Position numbers and translations under genes: made by a program. Under the pieces are notes generated by a model, which made no database searches, had not been told where the DNA came from, and saw only the letters and a list, made by a program, of their open reading frames with translations. Positions 25,247-42,631 of a stretch of 64,000 nt of DNA are shown in pieces. Each line of letters opens with the position of its first letter. The stretch's first letter is position 1. This stretch comes from Panacibacter microcysteis. Its GTDB lineage: Bacteria > Bacteroidota > Bacteroidia > Chitinophagales > Chitinophagaceae. The DNA lies in assembly GCF_015831355.1 (NCBI RefSeq), contig NZ_JADWYR010000002.1, forward strand, positions 620,001 through 684,000. The letters run 5' to 3'.

Positions 25247-25551
25247 AATTTCAAAAAATTGAACGGCAAAAGTAAATCATTACAGCACAGTTTGCAAACG
25301 ATACGCAAAGTACGGCTGGCATTATAAGCCATTACCCGTAAAGAAGCAGGAGTTTTTTTTCATGATTTCGGCTATTGGTTTACATGGCATCGTCCCTTGC
25401 GTCGCACACTTCATCTGCAAACCATTATTCAACATCGATGCGGGTGTAGCAGTTGCACTGTCACAAACATGCCAATGACCGGCCCGGTACACTTAATTTT
25501 TTTTCTTTTCTTATATCCTATAAATTGCCGCTTCACATCAACCAGGCTTTA
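25247..25551. other. Intergenic region between divergent genes
   Basis: About 300 bp between the ABC-F gene and the ABC exporter gene, holding one subtype D repeat (25385-25419). It must contain both promoters; no clear promoter motif was identified. Confidence 0.45.
25385..25419 (-). repeat. Dispersed intergenic repeat, subtype D (degenerate)
   Basis: The minus strand reads TGCAGATGAAGTGTGCGACG, then CAAGGGACGATGCCA. It keeps the GCGACG-CAA centre and the GATGCCA end of the family. Confidence 0.78.
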
Positions 25552-27219
25552 TTGAAAAAACTGCTTCGCAATATCAGTGTCATTCTTTCCAAAGACGAGA
25601 AAAGAAAACTTGGTTACCTGACTGCGCTCAACATCTTTACTGGCATAGCAGATATTTTTTCGATCTTTTTTCTTTTTGTGGTTATCAATTTTTATTCTCC
25701 CCAAACCACCGGGGTAAACATACTTTCTTCCTTCTTTTCGCATAATAAAGACCATGTATTGATACCTGGTATACTGTTACTGGCAGTTTTCTTAGTTAAA
25801 AGTATACTTGGGTATTATGTTTCAAAAGCTCATTACCGGTTTATTAACAATGTGGCATCCGGCATATCAGAGAAAAACCTGCTTTTATACCTTGAGGGTG
25901 AGTATTCCGCTTACACAATGACAGATTCTGCGGCATATACGCGAACAATCTGTTTTCAGCCCGTAGAGTTTGCTCATTTCGTATTGTCAGGCGTACTACA
26001 GGTTATTACAGAAGCAAGCCTGGTAATTTTAACTATAACAGCCTTGTTGATTTACGATGCAAAATTGCTTCTTATCATCGCTATTGTACTATTGCCCGCT
26101 ATCGGTTTCCTGTCATATATCACCAAAAAGCGCTTGTCGGGCATCAGGAAAAACATCAGTACTGCTAATGAGCAGAACATCCAGTTTCTTCATGAGGCGC
26201 TTGCCGGTTATGTAGAAAGCAATCTGTACAATAAAAATTTATTGCTTGCTGACAGGTACAATAAAACGCAATCTGTGGTTAATAATTACGTTGCCGATCT
26301 CCAGATAACACAAGCTATACCTTCCCGCTTTTTTGAAGTGTTTGCCATCTTCGGATTGTTTGTATTTATATTAGCAGGTCAATACAATGACAGCGGAAAC
26401 GCACTTGTCTTCTTCACGTTAGGGGCTTATATGGCGGCTGCTTATAAAATCATCCCTGGTATATCCAGGATAATCAACGTCAGCAATACCATCAAAACTT
26501 ATTATTATACGGTAGATGAATTGCTTAAAAATAATAAGCCGCCTCAAAACAACAGCAAGCCCCGGAAAGAAGAAACGATCGTTTCCGTTACTGCAACCGA
26601 TGTATGTTTCAGCTATGACAATAAAATCATTTTTGATCATTTCAATTGCAGTTTTACAGTTTCGTCATTTACGGCAGTTACCGGTGCTTCAGGGAAAGGC
26701 AAAACGACGTTGATCAACCTTTTACTCGGATTTCTGCAACCAGTTAAAGGAGCTATCAGGGTAAACGGAAATCCTGTTAACGAAGCAAACAGGAAAATGT
26801 ACTGGCAGGACATCTCATACGCCAAACAGGGAGCATTTCTTTTACACGACACAATACGCAGAAACATTACCTTACTGGAAGATAAATGGGATGAACCGTT
26901 GTTGGAAAATGCCATAAAGCACAGCCTGCTTTCCGATTTTGTCAATAGCTTTCCTGAGGGTCTTGACAGAATGATTACGGAAAACGGCAGAAACATAAGT
27001 GGTGGCCAGAGACAGCGTTTGGCAATTGCCAGGGCACTTTATAAAAATAGCAATGTAATTATTTTAGATGAACCTTTTAATGAACTGGATGAAGCTGCTG
27101 AGCTATCCATTATGAAATATTTCAGGCAACTGGCAGACGAAGGCAGGATTGTAATTCTTGTAACGCATAACAAAGCAAACCTGCATTTTTGTACCAATAT
27201 TATTTCACTGGATGCGTAA
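25552..27219 (+). CDS. ABC transporter, fused permease and ATPase (PglK-like flippase/exporter)
   Basis: About 555 aa from a proposed TTG at 25552 (MKKLLRNISVILSKDEKRK). The open frame reaches a TTG at 25453, and no ATG occurs before the first helix. Six TM helices cover about the first 300 residues. The ATPase follows: Walker A GASGKGKTTL, Q-loop SYAKQGAFLLHDTIRRNI, signature NISGGQRQRLAIARALY, Walker B VIILDEPFNELDE and H-loop ILVTHNKAN. It resembles homodimeric lipid-linked oligosaccharide flippases (PglK/WlaB). The stop overlaps the start of the next glycosyltransferase by 8 bases, tying it to glycan assembly. The substrate is inferred from context only. Confidence 0.88.
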   Translation: MKKLLRNISVILSKDEKRKLGYLTALNIFTGIADIFSIFFLFVVINFYSPQTTGVNILSSFFSHNKDHVLIPGILLLAVFLVKSILGYYVSKAHYRFINNVASGISEKNLLLYLEGEYSAYTMTDSAAYTRTICFQPVEFAHFVLSGVLQVITEASLVILTITALLIYDAKLLLIIAIVLLPAIGFLSYITKKRLSGIRKNISTANEQNIQFLHEALAGYVESNLYNKNLLLADRYNKTQSVVNNYVADLQITQAIPSRFFEVFAIFGLFVFILAGQYNDSGNALVFFTLGAYMAAAYKIIPGISRIINVSNTIKTYYYTVDELLKNNKPPQNNSKPRKEETIVSVTATDVCFSYDNKIIFDHFNCSFTVSSFTAVTGASGKGKTTLINLLLGFLQPVKGAIRVNGNPVNEANRKMYWQDISYAKQGAFLLHDTIRRNITLLEDKWDEPLLENAIKHSLLSDFVNSFPEGLDRMITENGRNISGGQRQRLAIARALYKNSNVIILDEPFNELDEAAELSIMKYFRQLADEGRIVILVTHNKANLHFCTNIISLDA

Positions 27220-28270
27220 ACAGGATGCTTTGGTAATTTTCACTCCGGCTTTTCCAAAAGATGAGCAGGACGAGTATTGGTTGCCCTGGCTGCAGGCATT
27301 TGTAAAAGCGGTGAACCGCAACAGCCCCGGGCTAAAGATCATTGTGTTTGCTTTCCAGGCACCGGCTTCACGGAAGGAATATGACTGGTATGGAAACAAA
27401 ATATTTGCTTTTGATGGTTTTTACAAGAAACGTTTTGCGAGGCTGATGATGTGGTTTCAAATCTTACAGCAGGTTGGTCGCATTCAGAAGACATATAATA
27501 TAAAAGGCATATTCAGCATGTGGTGTCACGAATGTGCCTTTGTGGCGAAGAAAGCAGCAACGAAATACCAGGTAAAACACTATTGCTGGTTGCTGGGAGG
27601 AGACGCAAAAAAATCTAATACGTATGTAAAGAAAATCAAACCAACCGGGAATGGACTGGTGGCAGCATCAGATTTTCTAAAAGATGAATTTTATAGTAAT
27701 CATGGTATAATGCCCGCCCATGTTATTTACCACGGAACTGATGCTGGATTGTTTGCTGCCAACAGTATGCAAAGAGATATTGATATATTGGGAGCAGGTA
27801 ACCTGCATGCTTCGAAACAGTATGACATATTTGTTGAAGTTATTGCACAGGTGAAAAAGCAAAGGCCGGATGTTAAAGTGGTCTTATGCGGAGATGGTGA
27901 AGAGCGTGCAAAAATTGAGCAAATGATCGCAAATCTCGGGCTAACCGCAAACATAGAAATGACCGGCCAGGCAAAGCATGCATCAGTTTTGCAATACATG
28001 ACCCGATCAAAAATTTTGTTGCATACTTCTGCCTATGAGGGATTTGGAACGGTTTGTACAGAAGCACTGCATGCGGGAGCATATGTAATTAGTTTTTGCA
28101 AGCCTATCTACAAACCTGTAGAGCATTGGTATAACGTGGCAGACAAAGAAGAAATGGTAAACATGCTGATAAGCCTGTTAAGCGCTGATAAGCGGGATCA
28201 CAAACGGGTTGTTGTGCAAAACATTGATAACACTGCACAGGAGGTAATAAAATTGTTTGGCCACATATAA
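27212..28270 (+). CDS. Family 4 glycosyltransferase
   Basis: A 352-aa GT-B protein. The ATG lies inside the last codons of the ABC transporter gene, so the two are co-translated. The donor domain reads ILGAGNLHASKQYDIFVEVI, VVLCGDGEERAKIEQM, and LLHTSAYEGFGTVCTEALHAGAYVISF, which matches the GT4 EX7E region. The N-terminal acceptor half (YNIKGIFSMWCHECAFVAKKAA) is less conserved, as is usual. Probably builds the substrate carried by the ABC protein. The sugar specificity is not readable. Confidence 0.9.
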   Translation: MRKQDALVIFTPAFPKDEQDEYWLPWLQAFVKAVNRNSPGLKIIVFAFQAPASRKEYDWYGNKIFAFDGFYKKRFARLMMWFQILQQVGRIQKTYNIKGIFSMWCHECAFVAKKAATKYQVKHYCWLLGGDAKKSNTYVKKIKPTGNGLVAASDFLKDEFYSNHGIMPAHVIYHGTDAGLFAANSMQRDIDILGAGNLHASKQYDIFVEVIAQVKKQRPDVKVVLCGDGEERAKIEQMIANLGLTANIEMTGQAKHASVLQYMTRSKILLHTSAYEGFGTVCTEALHAGAYVISFCKPIYKPVEHWYNVADKEEMVNMLISLLSADKRDHKRVVVQNIDNTAQEVIKLFGHI

Positions 28271-28451: not shown

Positions 28452-29624
28452 ATGCGTGCTGCAGATATATCTTTTTATTATGATGATTTTGTGGAAAGCG
28501 AAGAAGAGCTTTTACGGGTTCATTATACCACGGTTGGCTGGGCAGAAGCCCTTCAGAGAAATGGCGTGGACGTTGTTGTTTTGAAACGATTTCACCGGGA
28601 TGCATCATTTGTAAAAAATGGTGTGCAGTATGTTTTTGTGAAAGATAAATTTAAAGGGGAGCTTCGGTTGTGGCAAATGCCTCTGTCTTTTCTGCGTAGC
28701 ATTGTCCGGGCGAATGCAGACATTGTTCATTTGCATTCATTTCCCTTTAGCTTTCCTGCTTTTGTATTGAGGATACTATTGCCACGTAAAACTGGTATTG
28801 TGGTGCAAAATCATGGAGGTAAAGTTGGTAGGGGATTCGCGATAAAAATATTGACCAGGCTGGCACACTTTGCTGATGCATTTTTTTTTACTGCTTTTGA
28901 ACAGGGCAGTCATTGGTTTAAACATGACAGGCTTCGTAAAAAAGTAATGCCGGTAATGGAAAGCTGTCCTGTATTTGATGTTGCTACACTGGATGCAAAC
29001 CGGACATATACATACGCAGACCGGGACGCTGCACGCAAGGCATTTGGACTAAAAGGGAAGCCCGTTTTTTTATGGGTTGGCGCGCTGGATGAAAACAAAG
29101 ATCCGCTTACCATATTAAATGCTTTCGAGGTGATTTTTACCGGGTTGAACACCGGCTTCCTTTACATGATTTATCACAACAAAAAACTAATTGCTGAAGT
29201 GGAGCAGAGGATTGTACAGTCGCCGGCACTAAGGAATAACGTTGTGCTTGTTGGTAAAGTACCCCGTGATTTAATGGTGCATTATTACAGTTGCGCTGAT
29301 TATTTTGTGTTAGGCAGTCATTATGAAGGAAGTGGTTTTGCATTAAGTGAATCTCTGAGCTTTGGATGTGTACCCGTTGTGACAGATATTCCAAGTTTTC
29401 GTGTAATGACTGACAATGGTACGCTGGGAAAATTATGGGAGGCAGGCAATGCTGATGCGCTTATTGCTGCGGTAAACGAAGTCTTACATAAACCTTTACA
29501 ACAGCAAGCGGAAAGTTGTATAAAATTTTACCGTCATCATCTCACCTTCGAAGCCATAGCTTTGACAGCAATTGAGCATTACAAAAAAATAATGGCAGGC
29601 AGATTAGCAGCAGTGAATGATTGA
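28452..29624 (+). CDS. Family 4 glycosyltransferase
   Basis: A 390-aa GT-B enzyme. N-terminal part: SFYYDDFVESEEELLRVHYT, DIVHLHSFPFSFPAFVLR and IVVQNHGGKVG. C-terminal donor part: VFLWVGALDENKDPLTILNAF, VVLVGKVPRDLMVHYYSCAD and VLGSHYEGSGFALSESLSFGCVPVVTDIPSFRVM, which contains the EX7E motif (E...SE). It is separated from the first GT4 by a repeat copy, so it may have its own promoter. It converges on the GT2 at 29642, with 17 bp between stops. Confidence 0.9.
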   Translation: MRAADISFYYDDFVESEEELLRVHYTTVGWAEALQRNGVDVVVLKRFHRDASFVKNGVQYVFVKDKFKGELRLWQMPLSFLRSIVRANADIVHLHSFPFSFPAFVLRILLPRKTGIVVQNHGGKVGRGFAIKILTRLAHFADAFFFTAFEQGSHWFKHDRLRKKVMPVMESCPVFDVATLDANRTYTYADRDAARKAFGLKGKPVFLWVGALDENKDPLTILNAFEVIFTGLNTGFLYMIYHNKKLIAEVEQRIVQSPALRNNVVLVGKVPRDLMVHYYSCADYFVLGSHYEGSGFALSESLSFGCVPVVTDIPSFRVMTDNGTLGKLWEAGNADALIAAVNEVLHKPLQQQAESCIKFYRHHLTFEAIALTAIEHYKKIMAGRLAAVND

Positions 29625-29641: not shown

Positions 29642-30616
29642 TTATTTCCTGGCGGCATAAATATTTTTGCCACTTCCAATTTGTAGTATCAACTTTAGAT
29701 TAACAAGCACCATATCCCTTTCGAGGTGAACGGCGGCGAGCAGCATATGGCCAAAGACTGACCAAAGCAAATACCTTTTTTTTACAAATCCCAGTCGTTT
29801 ATTCGTTGTCCTGAAGTAATCGAGCGCCATTACTCTCCTGTAGTGTTGGGGTATTTTTTGCAGGCGGTTTATTTTTTCCTGGTGGTGATACACATATGCA
29901 TTATTTAACACGTGTATACTGCCGGCAGGAAGGTTGATTGATAAACCATAGTTGTCGCCTATCCCGTGTTTGTCAAGTTTTTCTTCGTAAGGAAACTTAA
30001 GTAAAAAGGATCTCCTGATTACCGAAGCCCCCAGGCCGTAGACAGGAGCATGGAAATATGAACCTGCAAAATCTGTTAATACGGGCCAGCCGGCTTTTGT
30101 GATAAAATTTTTCCTTGCCGCGTAATATTTTTTTATGCCCCTGCTGAGCAGGGTATCGTTGCATGCTATATCTCCCCAGATGCTCTGACAGAAGAAATAT
30201 TTCCATAACAATGTGACAACAGATGTAACAGGATATTTAGATTGCCACCGGCCATTTTCCTGTTGCAGTACCACCCCGGAAATTGCGCATGCATCCGGGT
30301 AATTATTGATATGGGTAATGATTTTTTCCACGTATGTCAGAGGAACTTCAATGTCATCGTCACATACAAATACCCAATCTGTTGTAGCAAGAGAAATACC
30401 TGTATTTCGCTGCAGGCAAACAGATTTTGCGGTATTGCGGTAAGTAATGTTCAAAGGAATAAATTGATCCAGTTCTTCCTTTGCGAAGCGATCTTCACCC
30501 GAATCAACCAGGATGACTTCTTTAAACGGATAAGTTGATGCCGATAAATTCCGGAGCAATGATATTACTCTTGCCTTTCTGTTGCATGTTGGTATTACTA
30601 CGCTTATTTCAATCAC
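29642..30616 (-). CDS. Family 2 glycosyltransferase, GTG start
   Basis: About 324 aa. IEISVVIPTCNRKARVISLL opens the GT2 fold, ILVDSGEDRF and YRNTAKSVCLQRNTGI follow, and DWVFVCDDDIEVP is the DxD metal site. No ATG occurs in frame before the conserved first strand: the candidates are GTG at 30616 (preferred, MIEISVVIP) and TTG at 30622. It is divergent from the first radical SAM gene and is the only minus-strand gene among the plus-strand glycan genes here. Acceptor unknown. Confidence 0.87.
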   Translation of the reverse strand: MIEISVVIPTCNRKARVISLLRNLSASTYPFKEVILVDSGEDRFAKEELDQFIPLNITYRNTAKSVCLQRNTGISLATTDWVFVCDDDIEVPLTYVEKIITHINNYPDACAISGVVLQQENGRWQSKYPVTSVVTLLWKYFFCQSIWGDIACNDTLLSRGIKKYYAARKNFITKAGWPVLTDFAGSYFHAPVYGLGASVIRRSFLLKFPYEEKLDKHGIGDNYGLSINLPAGSIHVLNNAYVYHHQEKINRLQKIPQHYRRVMALDYFRTTNKRLGFVKKRYLLWSVFGHMLLAAVHLERDMVLVNLKLILQIGSGKNIYAARK

Positions 30617-30749
30617 AAACAATAAATAAGATGGATCGCTTTCTGTTATGTTACGCTTTCAAAAGTACTATTTGCTATTTTATATTTGTTATTTACCTGT
30701 TCTGCTACAATGACTTTTTATTCATACAAAAGCTGTTAACTTGCGGACA

Positions 30750-32201
30750 ATGAGTGCTATTCTTTTCTCACATTCTTATTTTCTCAGGTTTGATCCCAAA
30801 CAATGGAAGACAGCCCAGCCTTATCCGCCATTGGGCACGTTGTATGCTGCCGCGGTAATGCAACAGGAGGGCCACCATGTAACATTGTTTGATAGCATGT
30901 TTGCGCACGACGCTTCTGAAGTTGTTCCTTATATTGAACAGCAAAAGCCCGCTTATTTTGTTATTTATGATGATGGCTTTAACTACCTGACCAAAATGTG
31001 CCTTACAAACATGCGTGAGGCTGCATTTGACATGATCGCGTTCGCCAGGCAAAAAGGATGTACCGTTATTGTATCAGGTTCAGACTCTACAGATCACTTT
31101 GAAAAATACCTTGATAAAGGTGCCGATTTCATATTGATAGGAGAGGCAGAAATAACCCTTAAAGAATTGATTAACGCATTGGAAGCACAGGAAAAGAATT
31201 TTGCATCCATCCAGGGTTTGGCGTTCAGGCAGCATGGTACAACTATAAAGACTTTAAAGCGCAACGTGATAAAGGAACTGGACCAGTTACCCTTTCCTGC
31301 GTGGGATATTATTGATATAGCCCCGTACAAAAAAATGTGGCTGGATAACGCGGGTTATTTTTCTTTAAATATGGGAACAACACGTGGTTGCCCTTTTAAA
31401 TGTAACTGGTGCGCCAAACCTATATACGGCAACAGGTACAATTCACGTTCGCCTGAAAATGTTGTGCAGGAATTGACTTTACTAAAAGAAAAATTCGGGT
31501 ATGACCATATCTGGTTCTGCGATGACATTTTTGGGTTAAAACCAGGTTGGGTCAATAGTTTTGCAACACTGTTACAGCAGGCAGGTTTGCAATTAAGATT
31601 TAAAATACAGGCCAGGGCAGATCTTTTATTGCAGGAAAATTATATACAGGATCTTGCACGGGCGGGTTGTGACATGATCTGGATGGGCGCTGAAAGTGGT
31701 TCCCAAAAGATACTTGACGCCATGGATAAAGGCACCTCTGTTGAGCAGATTTATGAAGCGACAAGACTTATTAAAAAATATGGGATGAAGCCCTGCTTCT
31801 TTATACAGTTTGGGTACCCGGGTGAAACAAAAGAAGATATCGCGGCCACCATTAAAATGATCAATACACTATTGCCATACGACATGGGTATTTCTGTTTC
31901 TTACCCGTTACCGGGCACCAAGTTTTTTGAGCAGGTTCAGTCTCAGTTGAAAGAAAAAGCAAACTGGACTGATTCTGACGAATTAGCTTTGATGTTTAAA
32001 AATACTTACCATCCGTCTTTTTATAAATCTTTACACCGTTATGTACATGCAAGTTTCAGAAAAGCCGCTGGTTTGCACGCATGTAAAGCCATATTCAGCA
32101 ATGCATCTACGCTAAAAGAGCTGAGAAAAGTGATACGTTTACCATACTATTTTTATGATGAGTTTATTCAGCGAAAAAAATTGAAGGCGTTTGAATTCTG
32201 A
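30750..32201 (+). CDS. B12-binding radical SAM enzyme, paralogue 1
   Basis: About 483 aa from the ATG at 30750 (an open TTG lies 9 bases upstream). The N-terminal 150 residues are a cobalamin-binding-like Rossmann domain (YPPLGTLYAAAVMQQEGHHVTLFDSM, FILIGEAEITLKELI). It lacks an obvious DxHxxG, so it may bind B12 base-off without His ligation, or may have lost it. The radical SAM core has CPFKCNWC (Cys214, 218, 221) for the 4Fe-4S cluster, then IWFCDDIFGL, MIWMGAESGSQKILDAMDKG and FIQFGYPGETKEDI. Relatives of this class (BchE, HpnJ, P-methylases) do methylations or cyclisations. It belongs with the methyltransferase and second radical SAM gene that follow. Confidence 0.9.
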   Translation: MSAILFSHSYFLRFDPKQWKTAQPYPPLGTLYAAAVMQQEGHHVTLFDSMFAHDASEVVPYIEQQKPAYFVIYDDGFNYLTKMCLTNMREAAFDMIAFARQKGCTVIVSGSDSTDHFEKYLDKGADFILIGEAEITLKELINALEAQEKNFASIQGLAFRQHGTTIKTLKRNVIKELDQLPFPAWDIIDIAPYKKMWLDNAGYFSLNMGTTRGCPFKCNWCAKPIYGNRYNSRSPENVVQELTLLKEKFGYDHIWFCDDIFGLKPGWVNSFATLLQQAGLQLRFKIQARADLLLQENYIQDLARAGCDMIWMGAESGSQKILDAMDKGTSVEQIYEATRLIKKYGMKPCFFIQFGYPGETKEDIAATIKMINTLLPYDMGISVSYPLPGTKFFEQVQSQLKEKANWTDSDELALMFKNTYHPSFYKSLHRYVHASFRKAAGLHACKAIFSNASTLKELRKVIRLPYYFYDEFIQRKKLKAFEF

Positions 32202-32220
32202 CCAAACCATATTGCCACAA

Positions 32221-33006
32221 ATGCCTTTTGATGTAATGGCTGAAACGTATGACGAAGCATTCTCTTTCTCGGAGATTGGCAAATTACAAAGGGAAGGCGT
32301 TTGGCGTAAGCTGTTGCCGTTACTTGGCAGCCACCAAAAACCTTTGCGTATATTGGAGATAAATTGCGGTACGGGTGTAGATGCATTACGTCTTGCTACC
32401 TTGGGGCATCACGTAATTGCAACAGATGCATCTGCTGTAATGATAGACCAGGCTACGCAAAAAATACATGACGGTGTTAAAGACAACCTGCAGTTCCTGC
32501 AATTAAGCTTTGCTCAGCTTAGCGGCTACAATTTCAATACAACATTCGATCTTGTATTTTCAAATTTTGGCGGACTAAATTGCATAGATAAAAAGGAACT
32601 CCGGCAGCTTGATAAAGATCTTGCGCGTATTACAAATGAAAATGCAACGCTTTTTTTTGTGGTGATGGGTAAGTTTTGCGTGTGGGAAACAACGTATCAC
32701 CTGCTTGCCGGAAAATGGAAGACTGCCATACGCCGCATAAAGGGCGAATCAACATTTACCGTAAATGGCAACACAATACCTGTTCACTACTATACGCCGG
32801 GTTCGTTGAATAAATTGTTTGGTCATTATCATCATTGTTACAGCCATGCAGTAGGTTTATTTGTGCCACCATCTTACCTGGAGTCTTTTTTTGAGAAGCA
32901 CCCGGCATGGTTAAAACGATTGGGTAAGCTGGAAAAAAAAATTAACAGCCGGGAATGGCTGAGTTTGTTATCTGACCATTATTGTACTGTACTAAAAAAG
33001 AAATAA
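32221..33006 (+). CDS. Class I SAM-dependent methyltransferase between two radical SAM genes
   Basis: About 261 aa from the ATG at 32221 (PFDVMAETYDEAFSFSEIG). Motif I is ILEINCGTGVDALRLA, the acidic post-I site lies in VIATDASAVMIDQA, and FDLVFSNFGGLNCI is motif IV. The family resembles the UbiE/biotin-synthesis-like class I methyltransferases. It starts 19 bp after radical SAM 1 and ends 6 bp before radical SAM 2, so the three genes are surely one transcript. Substrate not readable; likely a sugar or lipid of the surrounding glycan pathway. Confidence 0.88.
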   Translation: MPFDVMAETYDEAFSFSEIGKLQREGVWRKLLPLLGSHQKPLRILEINCGTGVDALRLATLGHHVIATDASAVMIDQATQKIHDGVKDNLQFLQLSFAQLSGYNFNTTFDLVFSNFGGLNCIDKKELRQLDKDLARITNENATLFFVVMGKFCVWETTYHLLAGKWKTAIRRIKGESTFTVNGNTIPVHYYTPGSLNKLFGHYHHCYSHAVGLFVPPSYLESFFEKHPAWLKRLGKLEKKINSREWLSLLSDHYCTVLKKK

Positions 33007-33012
33007 GAATTA

Positions 33013-34410
33013 ATGAATATTGTGCTTACACATGGTTACTTTTTAGCAGAAGACCCAAAAGAGAGAGAGATCATGCGGCCGTACCCACCATTGGGTATTT
33101 TGTACATTTCAGGTTACCTGGATATGCATGGTATTGCAAACGAAGTTTTCGATTCAACATTTGCCACACTACAAAAACTTGAGCATTTTTTATTGCAGGA
33201 AAAACCACGTATGCTTGGTATTTATACAAACTTAATGACCAAGCTGAATGTGCTGAAGATTATTGCATTCGTTAAAAATGAACCCGCATTAAGCAATACA
33301 AAAATTATCCTGGGCGGCCCTGAAGTGCGTAACCACAAAGAAAAATTCCTGGCATATGGCGCAGATGTTATTGTTTTTGGTGAAGGTGAGGATACTATGG
33401 TAGAGCTGGCAAATGCATTTACAAGCCACCTCCGGCCTGATCTGAGTGTTATTCCCGGAATCGCTTACAAAAATGAAATCGATAACGTAACGGTCAACGA
33501 AGAGCGCATCCTGATAAGGGACATCAACCAGCTTCCTTTTCCCAACAGGAAAAAGATAAATATGCAGTTGTATTTTGATGCATGGAAGCCGAAGCACGGC
33601 ATCAGTATGGTAAATGTAAGTACCATGCGTGGTTGCCCCTACTCATGCAAATGGTGCAGCCGCGCTGTCTATGGTACCAGCTACCGCAGGCGCAATCCCA
33701 AACTGGTGGTTGATGAAATGCAATGGTTGAAAGAAAATTATTCATTTGACATGATCTGGTTTGTGGATGATGTATTTACCATTAACCCACGGTGGCTGCG
33801 TGAATTTGCTGAAGAGATAAGCGTCAGAAACCTTAACATACCATACGAAATCATCACAAGAGCCGACAGGCTTACAGAAGAGTCTGTGCAATTACTCAAG
33901 CAAAGCGGTTGTTTCAGGGTTTGGATTGGTGCGGAAAGCGGTTCGCAGAAAATTATCGATGCCATGGACCGCCGCGTAAAAGTTGAACAGGTACGAGATA
34001 TGATACGGCTGGTAAAACAATATGGTATGGAAGCAGGTACTTTTATTATGCTTGGCTACCCCGGTGAAGACGAAAGTGATATTAAAGAAACGCTCAAACA
34101 TTTGAAATATGCTAACCCCAGCCTTTATACGGTAACGGTTGCCTATCCCATAAAAGGCACGCCTTTGTATACCGAAGTTGAAGATCTTTTTATAGAAGAA
34201 CTGGCATGGGAAAACTCTACAGACAGAGACATTGATTTTACGCGCACTTACAGCCGTCGTTATTACGTGCATGCCATCAACTGGATTCAGCAGGAAATGT
34301 TGTACCTGCGCAACCAGGGCCCAATCAATAAACTCAAATTAAAACTACGCTCAGTAAAGGCAAGAGCAGGCATGTACTTCGAAAGATTCCGGCATAGAAT
34401 ACCCGTATAA
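33013..34410 (+). CDS. B12-binding radical SAM enzyme, paralogue 2
   Basis: A 465-aa homologue of the protein at 30750. The N-terminal cobalamin-binding-like domain reads MRPYPPLGILYISGYLDMHGIANEVFDSTF and IVFGEGEDTMVELANAF, again without a clear DxHxxG. The radical SAM cluster motif is CPYSCKWC (Cys208, 212, 215), followed by IWFVDDVFTINPRWL, FRVWIGAESGSQKIIDAMDRR and FIMLGYPGEDESDI. Both copies share PYPPLG and the AESGSQKI stretch and are clearly duplicates, yet diverged enough to act on different substrates or steps. Confidence 0.9.
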   Translation: MNIVLTHGYFLAEDPKEREIMRPYPPLGILYISGYLDMHGIANEVFDSTFATLQKLEHFLLQEKPRMLGIYTNLMTKLNVLKIIAFVKNEPALSNTKIILGGPEVRNHKEKFLAYGADVIVFGEGEDTMVELANAFTSHLRPDLSVIPGIAYKNEIDNVTVNEERILIRDINQLPFPNRKKINMQLYFDAWKPKHGISMVNVSTMRGCPYSCKWCSRAVYGTSYRRRNPKLVVDEMQWLKENYSFDMIWFVDDVFTINPRWLREFAEEISVRNLNIPYEIITRADRLTEESVQLLKQSGCFRVWIGAESGSQKIIDAMDRRVKVEQVRDMIRLVKQYGMEAGTFIMLGYPGEDESDIKETLKHLKYANPSLYTVTVAYPIKGTPLYTEVEDLFIEELAWENSTDRDIDFTRTYSRRYYVHAINWIQQEMLYLRNQGPINKLKLKLRSVKARAGMYFERFRHRIPV

Positions 34411-34419
34411 CCGGCGGCG

Positions 34420-35343
34420 TTACGCAACGGATTTAAGCACGATTGCACTAAACAGCTTTTGCATTTTTTCTTCGTGCATGCTCAATACTTTTTGCTGAAA
34501 ATGTTGTGGGTAAGGTTTGCAGTAATGTTTGCCCACCATCATGCTGCCCAGTACATAACCGCTGTTTGTAACTACGTGTTTGGATTGTAGTTTCTCCCAC
34601 CGTCTTTCAAAGTAACGCATCAGCGCATCATCAATTTTTTGCCCCCGCCTGTTCCGGAAAACTTTCTCTATGAGCCTGCTGGTAAAGCTTTTACTTTTTT
34701 CAGGATGCCTGTATTCAATTGGCGGATGATTCGGAAAAAAACGATATATCCATTCGTTGGCCGCAAAAAAGCCGGCAAAGCATTGCATACCGTAAACAGG
34801 CATCAGCGTAGCAATTTCTGTAGCAGTAAAAATATTTTTTTCACTTATCTCAAGGTATGATTCGTCAACAGTATAGTTAAGACAAAAGTATTTTTTAAAA
34901 CCAAACAGCGATACCAGTTTAATGAATGTAAAGAAAACAGAACGACAGATCCACAGGTAATCTTTTTCCGCAATAACAAAGAAATCATAATCACTGTCGC
35001 TGGTTGCAACTTTTTTTGATAAAGAGCCAGATATGGCAATGCCTTTTACAAACGGAAACCATGATAGAAAAGCAGCAATCTTCCTGGCTTTTACAAGGTG
35101 TTTCTCAGCCAGTTTATTTGCGGCAAGCCGTGCAGTTAAAAGAGAATCATCATGTTTGAGCTGGTAATACCCCTGTGTTTTAAAAAGTATTTTTTCTTTC
35201 ATGAGAGCAGCAAGTGCGCCGGCAAGTTCCTGTTCTGTACACGGCATGTCCAGGTGCGCTCTTATTTCCGCCGAAGTCATGGGGTAATGAAAAATATCAA
35301 AATAGGTCATAGACCTTATTATGCTTCGTTTTAATTCGTCCAT
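34420..35343 (-). CDS. Nucleotidyltransferase-fold protein
   Basis: About 307 aa from the ATG at 35343 (MDELKRSIIRSMTYFDIFHYP). The N-terminal 70 residues look like a winged helix. The centre has the minimal nucleotidyltransferase signature GIAISGSLSKKVATSDSDYD (GS near 106, Asp at about 116, 118 and 120) with FFVIAEKD behind it, the fold used by MNT/polymerase-beta-type enzymes. The C-terminal part is helical and basic. It faces the radical SAM genes, with 9 bp between stops, so it is not in their transcript. Bacteroidota glycan clusters often hold such proteins; the substrate and activity are unknown. Confidence 0.78.
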   Translation of the reverse strand: MDELKRSIIRSMTYFDIFHYPMTSAEIRAHLDMPCTEQELAGALAALMKEKILFKTQGYYQLKHDDSLLTARLAANKLAEKHLVKARKIAAFLSWFPFVKGIAISGSLSKKVATSDSDYDFFVIAEKDYLWICRSVFFTFIKLVSLFGFKKYFCLNYTVDESYLEISEKNIFTATEIATLMPVYGMQCFAGFFAANEWIYRFFPNHPPIEYRHPEKSKSFTSRLIEKVFRNRRGQKIDDALMRYFERRWEKLQSKHVVTNSGYVLGSMMVGKHYCKPYPQHFQQKVLSMHEEKMQKLFSAIVLKSVA

Positions 35344-35524
35344 CTGCGGTAGTGAATTCAAATAAAAAGTTTGTTTTGGCTATGTCTTGCGTAAAAAAAA
35401 GCCGGTATTTCCTTTAATTAAAGATCAACTTTATATTTTACTATCAGCTTAAAAAAATACCGAGTAAGCATTTTTATATACCGAACAGGCTTTTGTAAAA
35501 GAGTATTTTTGGTAGCAGGCTTTA

Positions 35525-37347: not shown

Positions 37348-39870
37348 TTACTCGCCTATCATCAACTTTACTGTTTTACTGATCCATTGTTGATTGCTTA
37401 CCCTTAAAAAATACAAGCCTTTTTCAAGCGGAGGTAATACGATTGTTTTGCTTGCTGTTTCACCTGGTGCCGGGTTTTCAAGTATGCCTGCCAATATGCG
37501 TTTGCCATCAACAGAAAGAAGCTCGTAGTTTAGTTTGCCTGTAACCGGTACTTTATAGTTTAGGGTAAACTGTTTATTTACTACCGGGTTAGGGGCAACA
37601 AAGATATTACCCGCAGAAATGCCGTTGCAGTTTAAGGATGCTGCGCTGCTAAAGTTTTCCCTGCCATTGTGGTCTGTAGCTTTTACCCTGTACCACAGTT
37701 TGCTGCAACCGGCAGGTATGCGTACATCAGTAAAACTGTAAGCAGAAGGCTGCGTGTATTCAGTGGTGCCAATATCGGTAAAGTTTGTACCGTTGGTACT
37801 TCTTTGAATGGTAAAGTTGCTGATGTTTGTTAGTGGGGTGTTCCATTTTACGAGTACATTGTTATTACCCGCCCATGCAGCGGTAAGCCTGATGTGTTCA
37901 TCTGCGAGCACTGTGGCACAGCCTGCAGGCGTGGCACTCATGTTAATAGTGCCGGAACTGGTACAACCGTTAACACTGGTGATTTTTACAGTATAAGGCC
38001 CTGCAACTTTAATATAAGGTTGCTGCAAGGCAGAAGTAGTAGCATCCTGTGCAGGGTTATAGGTATTGTTAGGATAGAATTTACCACCGGATGCAGTTGT
38101 CCAGTACCAGGTAGTGCCATTGGTTTCATTTAGCCTTAACCATGCAGGGTTAGTACCACAACTCCAGGAAATGGAAGGAACAGTATTATCGTATGTAATG
38201 TTTCCTGTAGAAGCGGAGGCCTTACAGCCGAGCGCATCAGTGATAGCCACGGTATACGATCCTGCAGCAGCGGGAGTGGCAGTAGGGTTTTGAATAGTGG
38301 CGTTGGAAATACCACTGCCTGTCCAGGCATAAGTGTAAGGGGCTTGTCCGCCGGTGGGAGTGGCAGTAAGTTGTATGGGAGAGGTTGCAGACTGTGCACA
38401 GTAAAGTGCAGTGCCTGCAGCGGCAGTAACGGCAGGTGGCGAGGAACAGTTTCTGATACCAAATCTTGTAGTTACATCAGCAGTGAGAACGCCGAGTGGC
38501 AATATACCATTGGGTGTACCATCACTGCCGGTACCAGAACCTTCTTTTTCCCCGGTGTAAGCCCATGCGGCGGGCAGTGAGGCTGTGGTAACCGCATTGC
38601 TGGTAGAGAGTACAAGTTTATAGCCGGCAGCAGCAACGACGTTGGCAAATGTATAGGTACCAGTACTGCTAACAGCAGTGGAGGCATAAACATTGTTGTT
38701 GTTATCGACGAGGTTAACATAGAGCTGCGTGGTACCGCCTGCATAGCGTGTAGCAGTGCCGTCAATAATGTTATTGGTCATGCCATCTGCATCATTATAA
38801 ACGGTGCCGGTAATATTGTAAGTCGGTAACGTAGCTGACAGTGTAAATACATCGCCAACATACCCGTCAACACCTCCGTTTGTGGGCCCCCATGAAGCCT
38901 GGGTATTTGTGGGATTTACACCAGGCATACCTCTTAGAAAAACCCTTAACACTATGCTGGAGATGTTTGTGCCATTCGTATTAAGTCTTACGCTGCCGTC
39001 TGAGCCCCGGGTTGTTTCTGCTGTAAAATAACCTGGCGTATTGCTCGCAGGAATTGTTGTATTTGTATTAATCACCTGGGTGTTATTGCCCACACCAAAG
39101 TAAGTGTTTCCTGATAACCTGGTAAAGGTGTAGCCAGCGGCCACCTCCGCTGTGCCAAGTTCGAACTCTGTATAAAAACCATGTTGAAACAAGCCATTAG
39201 CCGAGCTGAATTCCCCGCCTATAGCGGCAAAATGTAGTACAGGATTTTGTACCGGCCGGTTAAAACTTATCGTAATGTCTCCATAATATGGCCTGGCATT
39301 CAGATTTGTGGCCCTGTATAACTGCGTCATATAGTATGGCGAAATCATTGCGCCAATGCAATAGTTTAATGTTACATCTATACCTTGTGTTGCACCTGTA
39401 AACGGATTGGAACTAAACCTGATACTCGTAGCACCTCCATAAGTATTCATTTTCTTCCAGATGTTATCTGCCACAACATTTTGGCCGGAGGATGTGCCGC
39501 CAAAAAAAATACCGGGGTAAGTGCCGCCGCTGTACACCTGGTTTGTAATGGCGTAGTTAACAGTAGTAGTTGGTGTAGCCGCACTAAACACTGTTGATCC
39601 ATTATCGTTTTTCAAAAATGTAGCGGTTTGACTTGCAGTTGTTGGGCCTGTTACTGTAAGGCTTGCACTGGATGCATTGAGTTCAAGTTGGGTTTGACCA
39701 ATTGCTTCAGTATTATCAATCCAGATGGTAGTCATCAATATCAGGGCACATTTAAAACTTTTTTTCTGTCTATGTATGAACGCAATGGCGAAACATTGGT
39801 TTAAATAAACATGTATCAGGTTTTTGATTACCAGTGTAAATCGCGGCTTCGGGCAATGATTGTAGTACAT
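37348..39870 (-). CDS. T9SS-exported multidomain surface protein with Por C-terminal sorting domain
   Basis: An 840-aa exported protein. The N-terminal part is an adhesion-like beta region (RPYYGDITISFNRPVQNPVLHFAAIGG, ELGTAEV, LRVFLRG). Next come an SdrD-B-like domain (GTVYNDADGMTNNI, TQLYVNLVDNNNNVYAST, YTFANVVAAAGYKLVLS), a SprB/PKD-like repeat (GGQAPYTYAWTGSGI), an FN3-like domain (VKWNTPLTNISNFTIQRSTNG, CSKLWYRVKATDHNGRENFSS) and a type A T9SS sorting domain (APNPVVNKQFTLNY to ISKTVKLMIGE). The ATG at 39870 adds about 40 residues before a plausible signal segment (KKSFKCALILMTTIWI), so the start is uncertain. A decayed paralogue follows on the same strand. Confidence 0.88.
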   Translation of the reverse strand: MYYNHCPKPRFTLVIKNLIHVYLNQCFAIAFIHRQKKSFKCALILMTTIWIDNTEAIGQTQLELNASSASLTVTGPTTASQTATFLKNDNGSTVFSAATPTTTVNYAITNQVYSGGTYPGIFFGGTSSGQNVVADNIWKKMNTYGGATSIRFSSNPFTGATQGIDVTLNYCIGAMISPYYMTQLYRATNLNARPYYGDITISFNRPVQNPVLHFAAIGGEFSSANGLFQHGFYTEFELGTAEVAAGYTFTRLSGNTYFGVGNNTQVINTNTTIPASNTPGYFTAETTRGSDGSVRLNTNGTNISSIVLRVFLRGMPGVNPTNTQASWGPTNGGVDGYVGDVFTLSATLPTYNITGTVYNDADGMTNNIIDGTATRYAGGTTQLYVNLVDNNNNVYASTAVSSTGTYTFANVVAAAGYKLVLSTSNAVTTASLPAAWAYTGEKEGSGTGSDGTPNGILPLGVLTADVTTRFGIRNCSSPPAVTAAAGTALYCAQSATSPIQLTATPTGGQAPYTYAWTGSGISNATIQNPTATPAAAGSYTVAITDALGCKASASTGNITYDNTVPSISWSCGTNPAWLRLNETNGTTWYWTTASGGKFYPNNTYNPAQDATTSALQQPYIKVAGPYTVKITSVNGCTSSGTINMSATPAGCATVLADEHIRLTAAWAGNNNVLVKWNTPLTNISNFTIQRSTNGTNFTDIGTTEYTQPSAYSFTDVRIPAGCSKLWYRVKATDHNGRENFSSAASLNCNGISAGNIFVAPNPVVNKQFTLNYKVPVTGKLNYELLSVDGKRILAGILENPAPGETASKTIVLPPLEKGLYFLRVSNQQWISKTVKLMIGE

Positions 39871-40464: not shown

Positions 40465-42631
40465 TTATTTTAATGCAAGTATTTTTACAGGTTTACTCAT
40501 CCATTGCGCGTTATACATTGTTATAAAATATACACCTTGCCGTTCACCCGGTGGAAGCACGATTGTTTTGCTGCCCGGTTCGTTGCTGCCTGCGTTTTCG
40601 AATGTGCCGGTAAGTAAAAGCCTGCCATTCATGTTATAGATGTTGTAATGTATGGTGCCCTGTACAGGTATCTTATAGTTAAGTGTAAACTGGCCGTTTG
40701 TAACTGGGTTGGGCGTTACAAGTATTGAGCTTTCCTGTAAGTGCTTACAGGTTACATGCGCAGTTTTACCCATCACTTCTTTGCCGTAAATATCGGTTGT
40801 CTTTACCCGGTACCAGATGTTTGTGCATGGTTCAGGTAAGGTTACATCCGTATAGCTGTAAGTTAAAAACTCGTTGGGTTCAATGTTTGCAATATTTGTA
40901 AAGCTTACGGCATCAGTGCTTCGTTGCAAAGTAAATGCGGTAACGTTGGTAATAGGCGTGTTCCATTTCAGCAGCACACTATTGCCAGCCCACAGTGCAT
41001 GAAGATCAATGTTATTATCCTCCAAAACTATGTTGCACGAAGCCGGTGTGGCCCCCACTGTTATTGACCCCGAAACAATACAACCGTTTGCACTTGTTAT
41101 TTGTACAGTGTATTGCCCGGTATTTTTTATGTAAGGCATTTTTAAGTTTGAAACAGGGCTGTCATCTGTTGTACTGTAAGTTGTACTCGTATAAAACCTG
41201 CCGCCGGAAGTGGTGGTCCAAAACCAGCTTGCACCGTTATTTTCCATCAGCCGCAGCCATGCAGGATTGTCACCACAACTCCATGAGATAGATGGCACAA
41301 TATTATCGTAAATAACATTGGTGAAAGCGCTCCCTTTGCAGCCAACAGCATCTGTAACGGTTACGGTATAGCTACCTGTTGTTGTTGGCACTGCACTTGT
41401 GTTCTGAGTAGCCGGGTTAGATAGACCACTGCCTGCCCATGCATATGTATATGGGCTCAGGCCGCCGGTTGCAGAGGCATTAAGTAAGATGGGCGAAGAT
41501 CCTGATTGAGCACAGTAAACACCGGTACTGGAAGTGGCGGTTACAACGGGAGAAGCTGTTGCCAGCGCTGCGCAATTCACGATGCCAAAGTTTGCATTGC
41601 TCACTGTATTAATAAGCAATGGTATTGCCAGTGTACCGTCAGGCAAGCCGTCATTTCCCGCAGCAGCTCCAATGTTTTCCCCGGTATTCGTCCACCCGGA
41701 CGGCAGCGAGGGTAACTTTGCAGAGGCGTTTGTAGAAAGCACAAGTTTATAGTTACTGGAGCTGACCACGTTTACGAATGAATATGTTCCGGCACCTGAA
41801 ACCGGCGTAGACGCAAAAACATTGTTGTTTTTGTCAACGAGAGATACGTATAACTGTGTTGTGCCGCCGGCATATTGTGTGGCAGTTCCATTTACTGTGT
41901 TATCGGTAGCCCGTTACCATCCCTGTAAACCGTTCCGCTAATCGTATATGTTTGCAATGATAAAGTCAAAACATTGCCATCACCCACATGCCCGCCTGTA
42001 TCTTCAGCCGGCGCCCAGTGTTCTTTAGCAACAATCCTCGGACCCTTATTAGGATCATAAGTTAAACCATTGCTTCTTAGAAAAACTTTAAGTGTAATAC
42101 TTGTGATAGAAGAAGTACCGGTGTTTATTCTTACGCTACCTGCAGAACCATGACTGTCTGACGAAGACGTTGATGCAAACCAGTTATTACTGTAAGAAGT
42201 TGGATTCGCAGTGTTGGAGTTTACAATTTTAGTATTGGAGGTAGTTGCATCGAAATAAGCGTTTCCAGATAACTCGGTAATGGTAATGCCGTTACTGATA
42301 TCTGTGGCGCCGAGTTCATATTCATTGTAAAATCCCTGGTAATATAAACCGCCATTGTTAAACTGGTCTCCGCCAATACCGCCAATATGCAACAGCGGGT
42401 TGGATACAGGTCTGTTAAATGTAATGACAAGATCACCATAATACACCCTTGCATTATAATTGGTGCTGCCATACGTAATATAACCATAGCGGAGGTCGGT
42501 TTCAAGCTGTACACCATAGTTGGCACTGCCATGTAATCCTGTGCCTGTGGTGTTATTGATGTTGGACGTAAATATGTGTCCTACGGAGAGCCAAAAACAT
42601 TAATAGGCCTCCATACATTATCGGCGTTGTG
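40465..42631 (-). pseudogene. Decayed paralogue of the T9SS surface protein at 37348-39870
   Basis: Two open stretches on the minus strand (42446-41892 and 41769-40465) together match the neighbour along most of its length, from RPxxYYGDLVITFNRPVSNPLLHIGGIGG through SdrD-like, PKD-like and FN3-like parts to the type A sorting domain (TPNPVTNGQFTLNYKIPV ... WMSKPVKILALK). They are in different frames: near 41,905-41,920 a one-base shift turns TDNTVNGTATQYAGG into a stop. A second shift near 42,575-42,590 separates NVWRPINVFGSP from VGHIFTSNINNTTG. The signal peptide and N-terminal segment are absent. Hence decayed; sequencing error at both sites is a less likely alternative. Confidence 0.8.

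Follow-up and report, generated by a model that had tools for sequence, protein, structure and literature searches.

The 64,000-nucleotide stretch of Panacibacter microcysteis DNA analysed here (NCBI RefSeq contig NZ_JADWYR010000002.1, positions 620,001 to 684,000; hereafter the window, whose positions are used for all coordinates unless another locus is named) carries two genes for B12-type radical S-adenosylmethionine (SAM) proteins, RS1 and RS2, with a methyltransferase gene, MT, between them and a nucleotidyltransferase gene, NTP, beyond (Table 1). Together they form a cassette whose probable role is to alter a sugar of the cell surface in a chemically unusual manner. The three plus-strand genes, listed in a preliminary description made from the sequence alone, are real and are spaced as claimed there, with 19 bp between RS1 and MT and 6 bp between MT and RS2; an alternative in-frame TTG start for MT at 32191 would give an 11-bp overlap with RS1. 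NTP lies 9 bp past RS2 on the opposite strand, in convergent orientation. The short gaps on the plus strand, together with overlaps between the genes in relatives, make a single transcript of RS1, MT and RS2 likely; these three genes have a 127-bp divergent upstream region of their own. The preliminary description also had them following an ABC flippase and glycosyltransferases (GTs). The flippase and two GT4 genes do lie upstream on the plus strand; a minus-strand GT2 gene intervenes, so the three genes would not be co-transcribed with the flippase. Matches to the Bacteroidota promoter consensus, including TATATTTG before RS1, are not commoner than expected by chance. A compositional island was ruled out, as the guanine-plus-cytosine content is flat at 38-44%.

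Table 1. Features of the cassette and its surroundings (window positions).
Feature	Position	Strand	Remarks
RS1	30750..32201	+	ATG 30750, stop 32201; B12-type radical SAM protein, 483 residues; obligate cassette member
MT	32221..33006	+	ATG 32221; class I SAM-dependent small-molecule methyltransferase, 261 residues
RS2	33013..34410	+	ATG 33013; B12-type radical SAM protein, 465 residues; RS1 paralogue; optional member
NTP	34420..35361	-	Winged helix, pol-beta nucleotidyltransferase (GS...D-x-D) and helical C-terminus, 313 residues; obligate member
GT2 glycosyltransferase	29642..30622	-	Divergent from RS1; adjoins RS1 in several relatives too
GT4 glycosyltransferase b	28452..29624	+	
GT4 glycosyltransferase a	27212..28270	+	
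ABC flippase, MsbA/PglK type	25453..27219	+	Flippase-GT4 scaffold as in relatives
TATATTTG	30681..30688	+	Possible Bacteroidota -7 element, 62 bp upstream of RS1; weak

The unit is defined by its conservation. Among 197 genomes of the same family (Chitinophagaceae), RS1 was found in 52 and NTP in 53; both occur in 51, NTP alone in two, RS1 alone in one and neither in 143 (Fisher p = 1.3e-43, a value that is overstated because related genomes are not independent samples). This pattern covers at least 36 genera. The two genes share a contig in 49 of the 51 genomes, always at most 11.5 kb apart, and lie on separate contigs of draft assemblies in the other two. The exceptions include a fragmented assembly in which NTP adjoins an ABC flippase (G080) and a genome that is 63% complete (G184). 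RS2 is present in nine of the 197 genomes, every time with RS1. In 108 RS1 loci of at least 9 kb, sampled without use of NTP, NTP accompanies RS1 in 104 and MT in almost all. The usual order across the Bacteroidota, seen in Flavobacteriia and relatives, is NTP-RS1-MT-RS2, with overlapping genes and NTP first; in Chitinophagaceae it is RS1-MT with a convergent NTP. Natural fusions that place MT at the C-terminus of RS1 occur in two lineages (L047/L048 and, separately, L149) and a GT4-NTP fusion at L144, which ties the parts together and to glycosylation. The linkage of RS1 and NTP, the fusions and the rarity of RS2 thus point to a core of NTP, RS1 and MT to which RS2 is an add-on. The expectation that the neighbourhood would be conserved in other Bacteroidota is borne out, the cassette recurring in their glycan loci, though as a different unit: the preliminary description had taken the RS1-MT-RS2 triad as the unit and overlooked NTP. 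The core was found in Flavobacteriia, Cytophagia, Saprospiria and Chitinophagia; a further locus, L075, comes from a metagenome-assembled genome classified as gammaproteobacterial, for which mis-binning is possible. At another locus (L115, G277:C15:71000-72370) the search reported an RS2 with an internal TAG stop next to an open RS1, as would fit a dispensable RS2.

Glycosyltransferase or Wzx genes were detected at 30 of 40 cassette loci as compared to 1 of 20 control regions (p = 1.7e-7), the controls being 19-kb regions chosen at arbitrary positions in the genomes from which cassette loci were taken, or in relatives of these. Neighbours include GT2, GT4, GT9 and GT87 enzymes, flippases and sugar transferases and, on visual inspection only, proteins resembling sulfotransferases and SGNH proteins; the Chitinophagaceae share a recurring scaffold of ABC flippase, GT4a and GT4b, as in the window. 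Recurring guests are the radical SAM families F5, F18 and F17 (SPASM type), the methyltransferases F4, F6 and F54, and an amidohydrolase, F56. The F5 panel's score of 40 out of 40 loci was not counted, since this panel cross-matches RS1 and RS2 themselves. No close relatives of F5 or F56 were found in the genome of the window, which therefore holds a small version of the locus. Given this context and the linkage described above, RS1, MT and NTP very probably act as a functional unit in glycan tailoring.

The guest families include two pairs. F5 (L081:14228-15748) and F6 (L058:6177-6854) are a second radical SAM-methyltransferase pair recurring in the same glycan loci, so that such modules seem to be a general theme in Bacteroidota surface-glycan loci. 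F56 (L082:17641-18804 and relatives), which is paired with the methyltransferase F54, occurs at 18 of the 40 cassette loci and in none of the 20 controls; it is distantly similar to aminofutalosine deaminase and could remove 5'-deoxyadenosine or adenosylhomocysteine arising from radical SAM or methyl transfer steps.

RS1 and RS2 are 36-37% identical and belong to the radical SAM superfamily, each with 89 bits for PF04055. Alignments of 31-37 relatives show that the cysteines of the CX3CX2C cluster motif (C214/C218/C221 in RS1, C208/C212/C215 in RS2) are all invariant and that the GAESGSQKI region is conserved. A Rossmann-type B12-binding domain precedes the radical SAM barrel in both proteins, the layout of class 1 cobalamin-dependent enzymes; the corresponding Pfam domain scores 54.4 bits in RS2 and is borderline in RS1 (30.8 bits in one scan, against a cut-off of 32.1, and 32.4 in another). 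The DxHxxG motif is absent from the B12-type domain of either protein. The alignments and Pfam scans thus uphold the earlier account of cluster cysteines, AESGSQKI region and B12-type N-termini lacking DxHxxG. The AlphaFold model of RS1 (mean predicted local distance difference test score, pLDDT, 86) matches the cobalamin-type radical SAM structures MgmA, TsrM, OxsB and AprD4 with E-values of about 1e-18 to 1e-20.

All NCBIfam scores fall far below the equivalog cut-offs tried. The best, for BchE (TIGR02026), is 145.6 bits in RS1 and 168.5 in RS2 against 481; this score and a placement outside the BchE clade led to rejection of a BchE identity. HpnJ (TIGR03471; RS1 132, RS2 130 bits, cut-off 577), HpnR (TIGR04367; 85 and 85, cut-off 650), the ladderane B12 radical SAM family (TIGR04072; 122 and 143, cut-off 360), the PhpK P-methyltransferase (TIGR04479; 110 and 161, cut-off 600) and the AprD4 diol dehydratase (NF033070; 80 and 70, cut-off 500) were rejected on their scores. 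In a tree with BchE and seven proteobacterial or desulfovibrionaceal radical SAM proteins as outgroups (HpnJ, HpnR, PhpK and GenK were left out), RS1 and RS2 group as sister clades (support 100/99), separate from F5, F18 and BchE. Neither protein fell inside any of the characterised families tested, the phylogeny covering BchE and unassigned relatives. Phage and plasmid collections yielded distant relatives only. The appearance of HpnJ and the ladderane enzyme among the nearest NCBIfam models, and of BchE, an enzyme of a hydrophobic ring, would suit a cassette acting on a lipid anchor or a membrane lipid rather than on a sugar. This is improbable: the scores are all far under the curated cut-offs, the neighbours are glycan genes, NTP is fused to a GT4 in one locus, and none of the recurring neighbours was recognised as a member of a lipid-biosynthesis family. 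The lipid substrate offered in the preliminary description is accordingly not favoured by the neighbouring genes.

The residues predicted to lie around the cobalt bear on the chemistry. In published structures a residue of the B12-domain loop that follows strand 3 sits beneath the cobalt: Asn186 in OxsB, Arg69 in TsrM and Trp76 in TokK (PMC13331322). In three concordant alignments, N78 of RS1 and N73 of RS2 align with OxsB Asn186 and with each other; both are invariant in their own alignments, and different residues occupy this position in BchE and in the remaining radical SAM groups that were aligned. A Trp or Arg under the cobalt, as in TokK and TsrM, is not present in RS1 or RS2. OxsB is a ring-contracting enzyme and does not methylate (PMC13142503). 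After strand 4 of the B12 domain RS2 has GGP; RS1 carries SSDSTDH or SGSDSTDH instead of the GG motif and so may depart from the usual mode of cobalamin use. Together, the OxsB-like Asn and the loss of GG lean to RS1 oxidising, deoxygenating or rearranging its substrate and to MT carrying out an ordinary methylation, as far as a few residues can indicate. A non-methylating radical step followed by ordinary methylation is accordingly advanced as a tentative proposal.

Alternatively, RS1 and/or RS2 could be cobalamin-dependent C-methylases that place methyl branches on a sugar, in the way GenK and GenD1 modify aminoglycosides, and MT would then supply an O-methyl group. We consider this rather unlikely, given that both proteins have Asn and not Trp or Arg under the cobalt, that the B12 domain of RS1 has lost GG and scores at the Pfam cut-off, and that BchE, the best NCBIfam match, is not a methylase. 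The option is retained because the majority of cobalamin radical SAM enzymes are presumed to be methylases (PMC13142503); in addition, the best solved match is the methylase MgmA, RS2 keeps a B12 domain with the GGP motif, and GenK and GenD1 are precedents for action on sugars. The C-methylated sugar put forward in the preliminary description is therefore one option only, from which the residues lean away.

MT matches Methyltransf_25 (4.7e-14) and contains the motif LEINCGTG as well as the family motifs FSNFGGLNC and PPSYLE. For NTP, Pfam gives a weak NTP_transf_2 match only; an alignment shows that the GS and D-x-D active-site pattern is kept in its relatives, and in the model (pLDDT 91) the pol-beta core is combined with a winged helix and with a C-terminal part that is mainly helical. 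Similarity to solved structures is confined to about 120 residues, those of the core, with MntA antitoxins the best at E of about 0.01. A role as a defence or toxin-antitoxin gene was rejected, there being no PADLOC hit and no HEPN partner; the conserved partner is RS1. The conserved D-x-D, the near-obligate link to RS1, the NTP-GT4 fusion and the Asn shared by RS1 and RS2 with OxsB, whose substrate is a nucleotide, could also mean that NTP makes a nucleotide-decorated glycan and that RS1 and RS2 remodel the attached nucleotide into a nucleotide-derived surface group. Such a route appears quite improbable, as the nearest solved relatives of NTP (MntA, DrrA and AAD(9)) are weak matches (E about 0.01 at best) whose targets are proteins or antibiotics. 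A fuller version, in which a lipid-linked glycan is nucleotidylated, remodelled by two OxsB-like enzymes and O-methylated to give a hitherto undescribed kind of nucleotide-derived or ring-rearranged Bacteroidota surface sugar, is similarly a long shot.

The explanation that best accommodates the whole, and to which we give somewhat better than even chances, is a modular, patchily distributed cassette that tailors a lipid-linked surface glycan at one of its sugars, ahead of export. Taking the gene unit, its linkage, the families, the fold and the glycan context as found by computation, we infer the reactions, their substrate, their order and the use of cobalamin as follows. The glycan would first be built by the glycosyltransferases of the locus. 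RS1 would then use SAM and its [4Fe-4S] cluster to form a 5'-deoxyadenosyl radical and abstract hydrogen from an unactivated carbon, so that the sugar is oxidised, loses oxygen or has its skeleton rearranged, upon which MT, acting as a unit with RS1, would methylate the exposed group. NTP could put a nucleotidyl group on the same substrate, as activation or as decoration. Where present, RS2, in which the cobalamin-domain signature is kept, may perform a second radical change, and the product would be exported by the ABC flippase or Wzx.

Several observations weigh against this explanation. With the panel used, no glycosyltransferase was detected in a quarter of the sampled cassette loci. A complete genome, G051, has NTP without RS1 and is apparently truly NTP-only; none of the panel's glycan neighbours occurs in the 19 kb around this NTP (L213, G051:C22:64322-65200). 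In G266, RS2 and MT are found without NTP or RS1 in the 19 kb read. The argument from the lower-face Asn concerns one residue with OxsB as its single precedent, loop 78-83 of RS1 is of low confidence in the model, and the presumption of methylase activity for most cobalamin radical SAM enzymes tells in the same direction. As a separate matter, the L213 locus could reveal the role of NTP on its own.

The enzyme superfamilies involved are already known. What is undescribed, as far as was searched, is that in glycan loci a radical SAM protein of cobalamin type and a pol-beta nucleotidyltransferase should be paired almost obligately, and no paper on the cassette was found in the open-access literature, most subscription journals not being covered. 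The conserved neighbourhood and the lack of a match to a characterised family support the earlier suggestion that this glycan locus holds a modification pathway not yet described. If true, radical SAM enzymes altering unactivated polysaccharide carbons would extend the range of sugars known from bacteria, and the near-obligate link to NTP offers a specific clue to the chemistry. Since the core occurs in about a quarter of the sampled family genomes and, beyond Chitinophagia, in Flavobacteriia, Cytophagia and Saprospiria, a single solved example would annotate many surface-glycan loci.

Elsewhere in the window, the minus-strand region 40465-42446 holds a paralogue of the adjoining secreted repeat protein (37348-39870). 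A frameshift near 41895 disrupts this paralogue: one frame closes with GNGLPITQ-stop and another carries on as NTVNGTATQYAGGTTQLY.

Comparison with known systems shows partial likeness to each. MgmA, the glutamine C-methylase of methyl-coenzyme M reductase, is the best match in the PDB in both sequence and fold (9ccb), but is 19% identical and has a protein substrate, and RS1 and RS2 fall under the TIGR04014 cut-off. OxsB/AlsB, the cobalamin radical SAM ring-contraction system, shares the fold and the Asn under the cobalt at the Asn186 position; it differs in being about 17% identical, and OxsB has an extra N-terminal domain and a nucleotide substrate. To our knowledge, it has no linked pol-beta nucleotidyltransferase. 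AprD4, a 1,2-diol dehydratase acting on paromamine, is the second-best PDB sequence match for both proteins, is similar in size and fold, and likewise has a sugar-type substrate (PMC5461906). However, AprD4 works with the reductase AprD3, whereas no AprD3-type reductase was recognised among the recurring neighbours read, a result obtained without a model search aimed at it, and a reductase-paired AprD4 model was set aside on this ground. BchE, the anaerobic Mg-protoporphyrin monomethylester cyclase, has the same layout of B12 and radical SAM domains with CX3CX2C and works after a methyltransferase (BchM), but has Ile at the Asn position and forms a separate clade, and no porphyrin genes lie near the cassette. 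As for NTP, some 120 of its residues align with the pol-beta core of MntA-type (MNT) AMPylating antitoxins, GS and D-x-D included. It differs from these in an additional winged helix, in a C-terminus of 150 residues that is largely helical, and in having RS1, not a HEPN toxin, as its conserved partner. Finally, plasmid 1 of Lawsonia intracellularis (L189, 14708-18931) has the order radical SAM, class I methyltransferase, radical SAM. Its radical SAM proteins are 25-29% identical and lie outside the RS1/RS2 clade, and no NTP was seen in the 4 kb read. The Lawsonia row is flanked by SIS-domain and DUF2304 genes and provides a distant parallel to RS1-MT-RS2.

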